This document shows, in pieces, positions 54,122-58,887 of a stretch of 64,000 bases of DNA. Each line of letters opens with the position of its first letter. Within the stretch, counting starts at the first letter, position 1. The DNA is from Simplicispira hankyongi (lineage in GTDB: Bacteria; Pseudomonadota; Gammaproteobacteria; Burkholderiales; Burkholderiaceae_C): assembly GCF_003570885.1 (NCBI RefSeq), contig NZ_QXJC01000001.1, positions 930,001-994,000 of the forward strand, written 5' to 3'. Both the position numbers and the translations under genes were made by a program. The notes beneath the pieces were generated by a model. It had not been told where the DNA came from, searched no databases, and saw only the letters and a list, made by a program, of their open reading frames with translations.

Positions 54122-54757
54122 ATGAACGAACACAAACAAGCGCTGCGCATTGTGGTGATAGCCCCCGAACTCGCCGTGGCCGACCCGCGAGACCGGCACG
54201 CCCTGCGGCTGGCCGAGCGCTCGCGCATGCTGCGCATCGGTTTGCTGGAAAACAACCTCAACCTCGTCGCCGTGCTGCCGGCCGACACCTTCCTGAGCGA
54301 ACGCCTGGCGCAGCTCCAGCCCGATCTGGTCATCGTGGACGCCGAAAGCGAAGCCCGCGACGCGCTTGAACATGTGGTGATGGCCACGCGCGATGCGCCC
54401 CGCCCCATCGTGCTGTTCACCAACGACGACGACACCACCCACGTGCGCGACGCTGTGGCCGCGGGCGTGTGCGCCTACGTCGTGGCGGGCCTGGCGCCCC
54501 AGCGCATCCGCCCCATCCTCGACGTTGCCCTGGCCCGCTTCGCCCACGAACAAGCCCTGCGCAGCGAACTGGCCGACGCCAAAAGCGAATTGAAAGACCG
54601 CAAAACCATCGACCGCGCCAAAGGCCTGCTCATGCAGCGCCAGGGCCTGAGCGAACCCGCCGCCTATGAGAAGCTGCGCAAGACGGCGATGGAAAAGGGG
54701 CTGAAGCTGGGCGAGGTGGCGCGGCGGATGCTGGAGATGGTGGATTTGCTGGGGTGA
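54122..54757 (+). CDS. nasT: ANTAR-domain response regulator, NasT/AmiR family
   Basis: A 211-residue RNA-binding antiterminator. The N-terminal receiver-like domain (LRIVVIAPE, LLENNLNLVAVLPAD, QPDLVIVDAE) lacks the usual cluster of phosphorylation aspartates. A coiled-coil (ALRSELADAKSELKDRKTIDRAK) follows, then the ANTAR domain (GLLMQRQGLSEPAAYEKLRKTAMEKGLKLGEVARRML). ANTAR proteins bind paired hexaloop hairpins in nascent RNA and prevent termination; NasT does this for nitrate genes and is held by the sensor NasS. A fitting RNA lies at 55690-55821. No nasS is adjacent. The start is ATG 54122, just after a sigma-54 promoter. Confidence 0.88.
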   Translation: MNEHKQALRIVVIAPELAVADPRDRHALRLAERSRMLRIGLLENNLNLVAVLPADTFLSERLAQLQPDLVIVDAESEARDALEHVVMATRDAPRPIVLFTNDDDTTHVRDAVAAGVCAYVVAGLAPQRIRPILDVALARFAHEQALRSELADAKSELKDRKTIDRAKGLLMQRQGLSEPAAYEKLRKTAMEKGLKLGEVARRMLEMVDLLG

Positions 54758-55551: not shown

Positions 55552-55568
55552 CGCACAACTCCGGTGCA
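55552..55568 (+). promoter_or_regulatory. NtrC-like enhancer site
   Basis: CGCACAACTCCGGTGCA contains GCAC-N7-GTGC (55553-55567), the core of the NtrC (NR-I) binding consensus. It is centred about 130 nt upstream of the predicted start of the nitrate operon, a usual distance for a sigma-54 enhancer. A single site is seen. Confidence 0.5.
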
Positions 55569-55663
55569 TCCCCACGCACCCGGTTCGCAAGAGGCCAGCC
55601 CCAGCGCTCTGGAGCCAAGCGCCTCGCAGTCCTTTTCCCCTGGCAAGCACTCCGCCCCCCACC

Positions 55664-55679
55664 TGGCACAAGCCTTGCA
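55664..55679 (+). promoter_or_regulatory. Sigma-54 promoter of the nitrate transporter operon
   Basis: TGGCACAAGCCTTGCA has GG at 55665-55666 and GC at 55677-55678, ten bases apart, and matches the consensus TGGCAC-N5-TTGCA fully. The expected transcription start is near 55690, giving a leader of about 158 nt before the first gene. Confidence 0.85.
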
Positions 55680-55689
55680 TTAGTGCTTA

Positions 55690-55743
55690 CAGACCCTTCT
55701 GGGTCACCCCGGCAGCCCCATCCAACGGCGGATGGAGGCTGCC
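55690..55743 (+). ncRNA. ANTAR-type leader RNA hairpins
   Basis: Hairpin 1 (GACCC 55692-55696 with GGGTC 55701-55705) has a four-base loop. Hairpin 2 pairs GGCAGCC (55711-55717) with GGCTGCC (55737-55743) and CCATCC (55718-55723) with GGATGG (55730-55735), with a single bulged A. Its loop is the hexanucleotide AACGGC, with A at position 1 and G at position 4, the hallmark of ANTAR-protein targets. A terminator follows at once. Hairpin 1 does not show the hexaloop consensus. Confidence 0.7.
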
Positions 55744-55756
55744 ACTTAACGGACAA

Positions 55757-55821
55757 AGGCGTCCCCACCCTGCGCATCTGCCGCCCCTTGCGGCGCTGCG
55801 CAGCGTGAGGACGCCTTTTTT
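55757..55821 (+). terminator. Leader terminator (attenuator) of the nitrate transporter operon
   Basis: AGGCGTCC (55757-55764) pairs with GGACGCCT (55809-55816), and within it TGCGCA (55771-55776) pairs with TGCGCA (55797-55802) and GCCGC with GCGGC. A run of six T follows. It stands between the promoter and the first gene, 26 nt before the ATG, so it must be relieved for expression; antitermination by the ANTAR protein is the likely means. Confidence 0.8.
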
Positions 55822-55847
55822 ATTGGCCCAACGCAAAAAGGAACCCC

Positions 55848-57092
55848 ATGACCGATCTTCTGACATCCCGCTTGCCCCGCCGCACCGTGCTGCAGGCCGC
55901 CGCCGTGGGCGCCGTGGGGATCAGCCCAGCGCTCCGCGCGCTGGTCCACGCCCAGGGCTCGGATGCCCCCGAGAAGAAGGAAGTGAAGATTGGCTTCATC
56001 CCGTTGACCGATTGCGCCAGCGTGGTGATGGCCTCGGTGCTGGGCTTCGACAAGAAGTACGGCGTGACCATCATCCCCAGCAAGGAGGCGAGCTGGGCCG
56101 GGGTGCGCGACAAGCTGGTCAACGGCGAGCTGGACTTTGCCCACGTGCTGTATGGCCTTGTCTACGGCGTGCACCTGGGACTGGCCGGCCCCAGGAAGGA
56201 CATGGCGGTGCTGATGACCCTCAACCGCAACGGCCAGGGGCTGACGCTCTCCAAAGCGCTGGCCGACAAGGGCGCGACCCACCTGGCAGGCCTGGCGGCG
56301 CTGATGAAGAAAGAGCCGCGCGAATACACCTTTGCGCAGACCTTCCCGACCGGCACGCACGCCATGTGGCTGTACTACTGGCTGGCGTCGGGCGGCATCG
56401 ACCCGTTCAAGGACGTCAAGTGCATCGTCGTGCCGCCGCCGCAAATGGTGGCCAACATGCGCGTGGGCAATATGGACGGCTTCAGTGTGGGCGAGCCCTG
56501 GAACGCGCGCGCCATTCAAGATGGCGTGGGCATCACGGCCGCCACCTCGCAGGACGTGTGGAAGGACCACCCCGAGAAGGTGCTGGGCACCACCGCCGAA
56601 TTTGCCCAGAAGTACCCCAACACCGCCCGCGCGGTGACGGCGGCCATACTGGAAGCCAGCCGCTGGATCGACGAGAGCGCCGCCAACAAGACGCGCATGG
56701 CGCAGACCCTTGCCGCCAAGTCGTACGTGAACACCTCGGTGAACACGATTGCGCCGCGCATCCTGGGGCGCTACGACAACGGCCTGGGCAAGACCTGGGA
56801 CGACCCCAACCACATGAAGTTCTACGACGGCGGCGCGGTCAACTTCCCCTATTTGTCGGACGGGATGTGGTTCCTGACGCAGCACAAGCGCTGGGGCCTG
56901 CTGAAAGACCACCCCGATTACACCGGCGTGGCGCGCGCCATCAACCGCATCGACCTTTACAAGCAGGCCGCTGCGGCCAGCGGCACGCCGTTGCCCAAGA
57001 GCGAGCTGCGCAGCAGCACGCTGATCGACGGCGTGGTGTGGGACGGCAAAGACCCCGCCAGGTACGCCGACAGTTTCAAGATTCACGCCTGA
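55848..57092 (+). CDS. nrtA: Nitrate-type ABC transporter substrate-binding protein (NrtA/CmpA family)
   Basis: A 414-residue binding protein of the NrtA/CmpA family for nitrate and related oxyanions. The twin-arginine signal (RLPRRTVLQAAAVGAVGISPALRALVHA, residues 8-35) directs export. Conserved family stretches are KIGFIPLTDCASVVMA, FAHVLYGLVYGVHLG, TFPTGTHAMWLYYWLASGGIDP and MRVGNMDGFSVGEPWNARAI. AAGGAA precedes the start. It is the first gene of a three-gene operon with sigma-54 promoter and attenuator. Because it is exported it is the transporter component, not the cytoplasmic sensor NasS. Confidence 0.92.
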   Translation: MTDLLTSRLPRRTVLQAAAVGAVGISPALRALVHAQGSDAPEKKEVKIGFIPLTDCASVVMASVLGFDKKYGVTIIPSKEASWAGVRDKLVNGELDFAHVLYGLVYGVHLGLAGPRKDMAVLMTLNRNGQGLTLSKALADKGATHLAGLAALMKKEPREYTFAQTFPTGTHAMWLYYWLASGGIDPFKDVKCIVVPPPQMVANMRVGNMDGFSVGEPWNARAIQDGVGITAATSQDVWKDHPEKVLGTTAEFAQKYPNTARAVTAAILEASRWIDESAANKTRMAQTLAAKSYVNTSVNTIAPRILGRYDNGLGKTWDDPNHMKFYDGGAVNFPYLSDGMWFLTQHKRWGLLKDHPDYTGVARAINRIDLYKQAAAASGTPLPKSELRSSTLIDGVVWDGKDPARYADSFKIHA

Positions 57093-57109: not shown

Positions 57110-58039
57110 ATGGTCGCCGCCGTTTTCCATTCCCCGCCCGAAGCCACCGCAGGCGCGCCTGCACACTCCGGAGCTATCAAAAATATAGCTGCTAGCGCAA
57201 TCAGCACAAGCGCTAGAGGCCCAAAAGACCTTAAAGACACCCCGCGCGGCCCGCTGCTGTCCCGCGCCTTCTGGCTGGCGGTGCTGCCGCCGCTGTGCGG
57301 CTTTGCGCTGCTTCTGGGCGTGTGGGCGCTGGTGTCGGCCGGCACGGGCGCCAGCATTCCCGGCCCGGCCGCTACCTGGCAGCAGGCGCGCGAGCTGTTT
57401 GTCGACCCGTTCTACCGCAACGGCCCCAACGACCAGGGCGTGGGCTGGAACGTGCTGGCCTCGCTCGAACGCGTGGCCGTGGGCTTTGGCTTGGCGGCGG
57501 CGGTGGGGATTCCGGCGGGCTTTGCCATCGGGCGTTTTACCTTCCTCTCGCGCATGTTCGGGCCGCTCATCAGCCTGCTGCGGCCGGTGTCGCCGCTGGC
57601 CTGGCTGCCGATTGGACTGCTGGTGTTCAAGGGCGCCAACCCGGCGGCCATCTGGACCATCTTCATCTGCTCGATCTGGCCCATGGTCATCAACACCGCC
57701 ACCGGCGTGCAGCGTGTGCCGCAGGACTACATGAACGTGGCGCGAGTATTGAACCTGTCGGAATGGAAGATCGCCACGCGCATCCTGTTCCCCGCCGTGC
57801 TGCCGTACATGCTGACCGGCGTGCGCTTGGCGGTCAGCACGGCCTGGCTGGTGATCGTGGCGGCTGAGATGTTGACCGGCGGCGTCGGCATTGGCTTTTG
57901 GGTGTGGGACGAGTGGAACAACCTGAACGTGGCCCACATCCTGATCGCCATTTTCATCATCGGCGTGGTCGGCTACGCACTGGAATCCGCCCTGGTGCGC
58001 ATCGCATCGGCCTTCACGTTTGAGGAGACACGCGCATGA
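57110..58039 (+). CDS. nrtB: Nitrate-type ABC transporter permease
   Basis: A 309-residue inner-membrane permease with about six helices; the EAA-like cytoplasmic loop is near NVARVLNLSEWKIATRILFPAVLPYML (residues about 208-235). AGGAG lies before the ATG. The first 55 residues are a hydrophilic tail; residues about 21-41 are encoded by an in-frame copy of the local palindromic repeat (copy I). The first membrane helix begins after residue 58, so the insertion is likely tolerated. Its end overlaps the ATPase gene by four bases. Confidence 0.92.
   Translation: MVAAVFHSPPEATAGAPAHSGAIKNIAASAISTSARGPKDLKDTPRGPLLSRAFWLAVLPPLCGFALLLGVWALVSAGTGASIPGPAATWQQARELFVDPFYRNGPNDQGVGWNVLASLERVAVGFGLAAAVGIPAGFAIGRFTFLSRMFGPLISLLRPVSPLAWLPIGLLVFKGANPAAIWTIFICSIWPMVINTATGVQRVPQDYMNVARVLNLSEWKIATRILFPAVLPYMLTGVRLAVSTAWLVIVAAEMLTGGVGIGFWVWDEWNNLNVAHILIAIFIIGVVGYALESALVRIASAFTFEETRA
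57168..57232 (-). repeat. Dispersed palindromic repeat, copy I, inside nrtB
   Basis: On the plus strand: GAGCTATCAAAAATATAGCTG, CTAGCGC (57192-57198), an 11-nt middle, GCGCTAG (57210-57216), AGGCCCAAAAGACCTTAAAG. This is a well-preserved copy in the minus orientation with both flanks. It is translated in frame as part of the N-terminal tail of the permease. Confidence 0.85.
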
Positions 58040-58887
58040 CCACCCACAGCGACACCGCCGCCGCCCTGCCCGCCCGCTCTGCGCCACCGGCTGCGCGCTA
58101 CCTCGACATCCAGCAGGTGGGGCAAACCTTCAAGACGGCCAAGGGCCCGTTCACTGCGTTGCAGGACATCAACTTGCAGATCGCGCAGGGCGAATTCGTC
58201 GCCCTGATCGGTCATTCGGGCTGCGGCAAATCGACGCTGCTCAATCTGATTGCCGGGCTCACCACCCCCACCAACGGCGTGCTGCTGTGCGCCAACCGCG
58301 AGATCAAAGGCCCCGGCCCGGAGCGCGCGGTGGTGTTCCAGAACCATTCGCTGCTGCCCTGGATGAGCTGCCACGACAACGTCTACCTGGCGGTGGAACG
58401 GGTTTTCGGCGCTACCGAAAGCCGCGCCCAGTTGCGCGAGCGCACGCAGGCGGCGCTGGCGCTGGTGGGGCTGTCGCACGCCGCCGGCAAACGCCCAGGC
58501 GAAATCTCCGGCGGCATGAAGCAGCGCGTCGGCATCGCCCGCGCGCTGTCCATGGAACCCCAGGTGCTGCTGATGGACGAACCCTTTGGCGCGCTCGACG
58601 CCCTCACCCGCGCCAGGCTGCAGGACGAACTGCTGGAAATCGTCCTGCGCACGCGCAGCACCGTGGTGATGGTGACGCACGATGTGGACGAAGCCGTGCT
58701 GCTGGCCGACAAGATCGTCATGCTGACCAACGGCCCCGCCGCGACGATTGGCGAGGTGCTGCACGTGCCCCTTGCGCGCCCGCGCCAGCGCGTGGCGCTG
58801 GCCGACGACCCGGTCTACCTGCGCTGCCGCAAAGCGGTGCTGGATTTTCTGTACACCCGGCAGGCGCATGTGGAAAAGGCGGCCTGA
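58036..58887 (+). CDS. nrtD: Nitrate-type ABC transporter ATP-binding protein
   Basis: A 283-residue ATPase subunit. Walker A is GHSGCGKST (near residue 60), the signature ISGGMKQRVGIARAL, Walker B VLLMDEPFGALD and the switch histidine in VTHDVDEAV. There is no C-terminal substrate-binding fusion, so it is the NrtD/NasD form rather than NrtC. It overlaps nrtB by four bases and ends the operon. No nitrate or nitrite reductase gene follows in the window. Confidence 0.92.
   Translation: MTTHSDTAAALPARSAPPAARYLDIQQVGQTFKTAKGPFTALQDINLQIAQGEFVALIGHSGCGKSTLLNLIAGLTTPTNGVLLCANREIKGPGPERAVVFQNHSLLPWMSCHDNVYLAVERVFGATESRAQLRERTQAALALVGLSHAAGKRPGEISGGMKQRVGIARALSMEPQVLLMDEPFGALDALTRARLQDELLEIVLRTRSTVVMVTHDVDEAVLLADKIVMLTNGPAATIGEVLHVPLARPRQRVALADDPVYLRCRKAVLDFLYTRQAHVEKAA

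Follow-up and report, generated by a model that had tools for sequence, protein, structure and literature searches.

The question raised by this locus is which hairpins in the leader of a nitrate transporter operon decide whether RNA polymerase reads into the genes. The operon lies in the window, the whole 64,000-nucleotide stretch of Simplicispira hankyongi DNA analyzed here, and includes nrtA (55848..57092, + strand; PF13379, E 1.5e-101), which encodes a nitrate-binding protein with a twin-arginine-like N-terminus, the nitrate ABC transporter permease gene nrtB (57110..58039, + strand; TIGR01183 above cut-off) and the ATPase gene nrtD (58036..58887, + strand; TIGR01184 above cut-off). Upstream, a gene at 54122..54757 (+ strand) encodes a NasT-like ANTAR protein of 211 aa with a receiver-like region and an ANTAR domain (Pfam PF03861, E 1.1e-19). 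It is separated from the leader by 1.1 kb, with a flavin-reductase-like gene (PF01613, 54946-55488) intervening; in most relatives, 200-650 bases lie between the end of the ANTAR match and nrtA. The first-pass annotation had described a sigma-54 promoter, a GCAC-N7-GTGC site, a first hairpin with a tetraloop, a hairpin with the loop AACGGC and a terminator 26 nt before nrtA, and all of these were found in the sequence. Its reading of them as an ANTAR-type attenuator that follows a sigma-54/NtrC-type promoter and has the ANTAR gene nearby is supported by conservation of the leader. Its suggestion that the hairpin pair is atypical, or that one hairpin suffices, was not borne out: it overlooked a further hairpin, H3, which gives a canonical pair with the AACGGC hairpin, H2. 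We put the probability at about 0.87 that the leader attenuates transcription under nitrogen control in the manner of the ANTAR (NasT/NasR) systems, with H2 and H3 as its antiterminator.

The leader, on the + strand, contains three hairpins followed by the terminator. The 5'-terminal hairpin H1 (55692-55705) reads GACCC-UUCU-GGGUC, or GACC-CUUCUG-GGUC in the six-base register; its loop CUUCUG, which closes to the tetraloop UUCU, lacks both A at position 1 (A1) and G at position 4 (G4), so that H1 is without the six-base A1/G4 loop of a functional ANTAR hairpin. H2 (55711-55743), the presumed recruitment hairpin, has 13 pairs with one bulged A, and its loop AACGGC (55724-55729) has A1, G4 and a C-G closing pair (55723-55730). 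H3, the antiterminator hairpin (GGAC-AAAGGC-GUCC, 55751-55764), likewise has A1, G4 and a C-G closing pair (55754-55761). The intrinsic terminator spans 55755-55818, with a U-run at 55816-55821 whose end lies 26 nt ahead of the nrtA start codon at 55848. The strand 55755-55764, which comprises the H3 loop and 3' arm, also pairs with 55809-55818 to form the terminator base, and H3 and the terminator are thus mutually exclusive. The window leader therefore has two hairpins of at least three pairs with six-base A1/G4 loops and C:G closing pairs, the latter being a rule taken from PMC7496416, and the second of them overlaps and excludes the terminator. Judged by sequence, H2 and H3 are a standard dual-hexaloop ANTAR antiterminator, and H3 corresponds to hairpin P2 in the dual-hexaloop model of the literature, where P2 is described as overlapping the terminator (PMC3369931, PMC3369936).

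Folding calculations were consistent with a switch. The folding energy of 55620-55850 gave z = -5.9, and none of 200 shuffles was as low. In a growing transcript, H1, H2 and H3 were predicted to fold in that order, and the terminator then displaced H3. The energy of H3 alone was -5.1 kcal/mol. Forcing the full transcript to keep H3 came at a cost of 13.6 kcal/mol, and the last paired base then lay at 55810 instead of 55818. A bound protein would have to pay this cost or delay it.

Related leaders were collected from 80 named loci and 30 loci of further family genomes, the window's own included, all fetched via nrtA (110 loci, L013-L122; L013 is the window's own). Removal of duplicate leaders (L069, L102, L112, L113, L117) and of L096, which had 17 bases upstream, left 104 usable leaders. 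L040 and L122 had no H3 as defined, leaving 102, and L035, L037, L041, L104 and L111 had no promoter match by pattern, leaving 97. Seventeen of these were not of the three-hairpin form, which left 80, two of which (L116 and L118) really have one hexaloop hairpin plus another hairpin.

The sigma-54 promoter TGGCACAagccTTGCA was read from the sequence at 55664-55679 (+ strand), and of the 97 leaders that matched the promoter pattern, 83 had the elements TGGCAC..TTGC. The palindrome GCAC-N7-GTGC at 55553-55567, 97-111 bases upstream of the -24 element, is what we take to be the kind of site bound by NtrC. It was exact in 68 of the 97 leaders (window's included) compared with 0.6 ± 0.7 in dinucleotide shuffles, and of the 78 sites in which seven or eight of the eight palindrome bases were present, 49 began 100-130 bases upstream of the -24 element. 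The -24/-12 promoter and the upstream palindrome together are those of a sigma-54/NtrC-controlled gene, with putative NtrC binding, and the promoter places the probable transcript start near 55690.

H3 was present in 102 of the 104 usable nrtA leaders (window's included) in a search that demanded G4, and 67 of the 102 shared the identical 14-mer GGAC-AAAGGC-GUCC. The terminator 3' arm had no mismatch with H3 in 79 of these leaders, one in 21 and two in 2. In 10 leaders the shared strand was GUUC and the H3 5' arm GAAC, and the terminator 3' arm was changed in 8 of the 10; the search pattern also allowed mismatched arms, and none turned up. One leader (L079) had GUUC with the unchanged GGAC arm, giving a G-U pair. 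The GAAC leaders occupy about four places on the nrtA tree, judged by eye. The strand common to H3 and the terminator covaries with both of its partners. Because H3 is nearly invariant, its covariation comes from few lineages.

A structural alignment was made of 42 leaders, selected by hand from 52 references. In this alignment 95.9% of cells paired, compared with 85.9% in shuffles and at most 49.1% in slid versions, and 57 cells were changed on both sides (15.7 in shuffles, at most 24 in slid versions). The covariation score, 0.319, was far over the shuffled and slid controls; two of the five covariation measures barely exceeded the slid controls (double-change pairs, 8 vs 7; further pair types, 22 vs 21). 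In the upper stem of H2, five of the six pairs were changed on both sides.

The window was searched with a covariance model (R2) built from 39 of the 42 leaders, leaving out the window and the two most window-like leaders (L084 and L092). R2 matched 55687-55768 at 65.4 bits (E 6e-14), and the next match in the window scored 11.7 bits. With a model that included the window, this was the sole site in the genome at E <= 1 among the 150 of 2014 candidates that were scored. When 44 chosen loci were searched, R2 found a match at E <= 0.01 in 34; at that threshold it gave no match in L040, L042, L116, L118, L122, L133, L145, L009, L002 and L003. In locus L040, nrtA is accompanied by an ANTAR gene with 46% identity to that in the window and by a sigma-54-like site, with no H3-type hairpin by pattern; its leader is possibly of a different kind. 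A further model, R1, gave 4 matches across 321 class genomes, own genome among them, in a survey that is weak as a negative (strict filters, 14 candidates scored per genome, and an nrtA-bearing family member, G114, missed). A pattern search of 250 order-level genomes found a match in 26, including the own genome, and nine of these 26 loci (L127, L128, L129, L136-L139, L144, L147) had two upstream A1/G4 hairpins plus H3.

The nirB gene sits just downstream of the window in the same genome (L009:1401-1486), and a sigma-54 promoter stands 85 bases ahead of its start codon. The same leader was considered there and rejected, the promoter being present and R2 giving no match, and nirB control in this genome seems, from sequence, to be free of attenuation. 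In Simplicispira lacusdiani (L084:9602-9735), nirB is preceded by a promoter, a hexaloop hairpin and a terminator.

We examined the state of the three loops across the relatives, 80 of 97 leaders having three hairpins. H2 kept A1/G4 in 76 of the 80 (76 of 78 without L116 and L118), which bears out the hexaloop conservation that the first-pass annotation had staked its reading on. H3 had G4 in all 80, as the pick required, with A1 in 74 and G1 in 6, and the H2-H3 loop spacing, 31 nt in the window, was 28-32 nt in 62 of the 80. H1 was variable: 43 had A1/G4, 3 an open G1/G4 loop and 34 neither, so that the loop was kept in 46 of 80 (44 of 78 without L116 and L118). For H1 against H2 the Fisher p was 1.6e-8, a descriptive value that treats related loci as independent. 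All three loops were found in 42 of the 80, or in 33 when A1/G4 was strictly demanded. No leader lacked both the H1 and the H2 loop. The reverse of the window's state was found in L016 (G088), in which H1 is intact (AACGCA) and H2 has no A1/G4 loop. Some leaders, such as L081 and L099, had only one upstream hexaloop plus H3. Many relatives carry H1 as GACC-AACGAN-GGUC, and by sequence the window H1 corresponds to this third hexaloop hairpin, degenerate here.

The changes were mapped on a quick nrtA tree of 101 rows (L022 left out), in which 36 of 98 inner branches were unresolved and the window row was a long branch. The H1 state required no fewer than 19 changes, of which well-supported branches force 7 or more, in a count that does not tell gain from loss. 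Shuffled labels needed 25.6 changes, indicating that the H1 state is also somewhat inherited. Loss of H1 was more frequent with the NasR type of protein (13 of 19 vs 15 of 51, p 0.005); no conclusion was drawn, since most NasR rows belong to one clade. Nine of the 26 order-level loci and the P11 locus L149 read as three loops as well, and for this reason the three loops may be older than this family.

We investigated the candidate partner protein. The window ANTAR protein shares 42% identity over 175 aa with that of a P11 locus, and its residues R160, K161, R165, Y182 and M190 align, by hand-counted positions, with EutV R142, K143, K147, Y164 and M172, the RNA contacts of EutV being those named in PMC8934654. 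Its receiver region aligns with those of Rv1626 and EutV, and phosphorylation residues appeared absent by eye only. A Pfam search of the protein gave no match to the NIT domain PF08376. Proximity and residue conservation suggest that this NasT-like protein acts on this leader. Two other candidates in the own genome were judged less likely, with gene names assigned by eye: L002, a receiver-ANTAR protein beside a kinase-like gene, and L003 (C7), an AmiR-like layout directly behind an AmiC-like solute-binding gene. Among 105 distinct loci, 92 had an ANTAR gene upstream, in 3 cases more than 1.5 kb away, and some loci were cut by contig ends. By identity, 24 of the 92 proteins matched only in or near the ANTAR domain, and the four of these put to Pfam (L063, L105, L116 and L104) all had a NIT domain. 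As judged by sequence, the same leader type goes with NasT-like proteins in some relatives and with NIT-domain NasR-like ones in others, and the protein type changed at least 4 times on the nrtA tree.

On the basis of the observed sequence, its conservation and covariation, the exclusivity of H3 and the terminator, and the ANTAR residues matching EutV contacts, the following mechanism is proposed. Under nitrogen limitation, NtrC and sigma-54 would start the transcript near 55690, and RNA polymerase would make H1, which in the window would be a plain hairpin at the 5' end, then H2 and then H3. If no active ANTAR protein is present, the downstream strand would displace H3, the terminator would form and a leader RNA of ~130 nt would be released. 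An active NasT-like protein, presumably with nitrate as the signal, would be recruited at H2 (AACGGC) and would hold H3 (AAAGGC), leaving the terminator base unpaired and allowing polymerase to read into nrtABD. Reports on other systems bear on this proposal in different ways. In Acidovorax citrulli, an ntrC deletion mutant is reported not to grow on nitrate, and in it the gene that the authors call nasS, which may be the NrtA-like gene, goes down and the gene that they call nasT goes up (PMC10052978); the failure to grow on nitrate counts for the attenuator reading, and the rise of nasT counts against it. So does the Paracoccus nasA leader as described in PMC5424462, where an HI mutation nearly abolished expression and an HII mutation hardly mattered. 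The Bradyrhizobium genes narK and bjgb carry predicted NasT hairpins and yet are reported to rise in a nasT mutant (PMC6759348), and such hairpins thus do not prove activation.

The alternative suggested in the first-pass annotation, H1 and H2 as an atypical pair or H2 acting alone, under which H3 would be just a part of the terminator, is very unlikely. H2 is the most obvious hairpin of the leader, and one hexaloop is reported to bind EutV (PMC8934654) and to bind NasR, about twelvefold more weakly than the pair (PMC7496416); for EutV, however, both hairpins are described as needed in vivo (PMC8934654). When H3 was chosen by terminator overlap with no loop rule, a pick was obtained in 88 of the 104 leaders and none in 16, 86 of the picks were the same, and the picks still had A1 in 80 of 88 and G4 in 87 of 88. 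In addition, the 5' arm of H3 takes no part in the terminator, yet it changes together with the shared strand. Least probable of all, and hardly to be expected, is a reading suggested by the name that Rfam gives P11 ('Pseudomonas sRNA'), in which the leader mainly yields a small RNA acting in trans. A terminated RNA of ~130 nt is expected and there is weak similarity to P11, but the features that are conserved belong to an attenuator; the position before nrtA is no evidence against a small RNA, the loci having been found by nrtA. The role of H1 is an evenly balanced matter. It may be kept structurally, as a 5'-terminal hairpin guarding the leader from decay and not as a protein-binding loop, which is compatible with an H2 + H3 attenuator. 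Four-base loops were found in 24 of the 34 degenerate H1 hairpins, with 9 GNRA and 2 UUCG, and 9 of the 22 distinct tetraloop hairpins were GNRA or UNCG (p 3e-9, which is no true probability, the loci being related). The EutV structure suggests that a methionine may exclude tetraloops (PMC8934654), and M190 of the window protein aligns with that methionine (M172), so the window H1 should not bind. On the other side, the 34 were chosen for a hairpin of at least four pairs, with the 17 leaders of other form uncounted; 8 of the 24 tetraloop hairpins retain G at position 4 of the six-base register, so that these loops may be weakened, not lost, and may still bind; and a redundant loop decaying by an A1-to-G change yields G-C closed tetraloops by itself.

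A further doubt concerns the signal. The attenuator may work with a NasT-like protein that is not gated by nitrate, being constitutive in the absence of NasS or answering another signal, with control mainly at the promoter; we regard this as rather unlikely. With the PF13379 profile and similarity comparisons, no separate cytoplasmic NasS was found in this genome, and that this usual partner of NasT was not found counts against the attenuator reading too. PF13379 (NMT1_2) matches in the own genome were NrtA at 342 bits, then 81, 77, 50 and 30, compared with 322 bits for a protein in the P11 genome G525 whose gene overlaps the ANTAR gene and which is presumed to be NasS from its position and the lack, by eye, of a signal peptide. 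Within their flanks (up to 5 kb), none of the 105 loci had a second NrtA-like gene, and of 120 family genomes all 78 positives had exactly one NrtA/NasS-like match at E <= 1e-80, a search that could miss a NasS whose identity to NrtA is below about 40%. In Paracoccus, a nasS mutant is reported to be deregulated (PMC5424462). Against a protein blind to nitrate, a NIT-ANTAR protein over the same leader in relatives suggests that nitrate is the signal, and a nasS gene is named in A. citrulli, possibly the NrtA-like gene (PMC10052978). A bolder proposal is that Comamonadaceae with NasT-type control have no NasS, the Tat-exported NrtA itself being the nitrate sensor that holds NasT, and H1, H2 and H3 forming a relay whose first step is optional. 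As a Tat substrate, NrtA would reach its folded state in the cytoplasm, ahead of export, and the window NrtA is 52% identical over 385 residues to the presumed NasS; twin arginines were found near the N-terminus of all 102 NrtA sequences read. We consider it improbable. If it were true, nrtA, which opens the operon, would feed back on the attenuator that controls it, and NrtA export would be coupled to NasT release.

The attenuator with an H2 + H3 antiterminator bears on a puzzle of ANTAR leaders, namely, that two hexaloops are needed though the protein grips one at a time (PMC8934654). The leader family is a natural experiment, in which close relatives have three or two A1/G4 loops and the state has changed many times. 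NasT-like or NasR-like proteins act, by this reading, over the same RNA, making the successive-binding model directly testable, and these leaders point to a further sensor of nitrate acting on NasT in a large bacterial family.

At gathering level, Rfam gave only tRNAs in the window, and no Rfam family covers the leader in the window or in the 11 Burkholderiales loci tried. In a permissive search, P11 and narK appeared below cut-off, and microRNA families and others were noise. The window was rejected as P11/NalA (RF00625; 23.5 bits vs a gathering cut-off of 70) and as narK RNA (RF03032; 22.3 bits vs 43.2). The P11 locus L149 scored 126 bits with RF00625, none of the 11 Burkholderiales loci reached gathering level, and the P11 model had 11 matches at E <= 0.001 across the 321 class genomes, 1 of them over the cut-off. 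Both the RF00625 and the RF03032 models begin with an apparent sigma-54 promoter (GGCAC..UUGC or CUGC), DNA that would not be transcribed. Like the window leader, the narK RNA model holds the promoter-like GGCAC..UUGC and a hairpin, CGAC-AAAGAC-GUCG.

Comparison with known systems places the leader among them. Among the titles and abstract openings listed by the literature searches, none named a third loop in an ANTAR leader. Like the eut, nasF and amiE leaders of Ramesh et al. 2012 (PMC3369931), the window leader has two A1/G4 hexaloop hairpins, the second overlapping the terminator, together with an ANTAR protein and nitrogen genes; that survey already reported matches in Burkholderia and ahead of nitrate transporters. 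Unlike the leaders described there, it has an extra hairpin upstream, which carries a hexaloop in roughly half of the relatives but is degenerate in the window; it also differs in having a sigma-54/NtrC-type promoter directly in front, with H1 at the probable 5' end. It resembles Pseudomonas NalA/P11 (RF00625) with NasS-NasT in the sigma-54 promoter, the H3 sequence GGAC-AAAGGC-GUCC and NasT, and L149 reads as three A1/G4 loops: AACGUG (by eye, with a three-pair top), ACAGAG (with G-C closing) and AAAGGC. It differs in preceding nrtABD, the reported target of NalA being nirBD (PMC12830290), and in that a separate NasS was not found in the window's genome. With the Klebsiella nasF leader and its NIT-ANTAR protein NasR, it shares the loop rule (PMC7496416, PMC3369936); some relatives have a NIT-ANTAR protein as Klebsiella NasR is, whereas the window protein has no NIT domain match. 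The three-hairpin architecture and the sensor wiring are a variant not found described in the accessible literature, and the mechanism is of a known kind.
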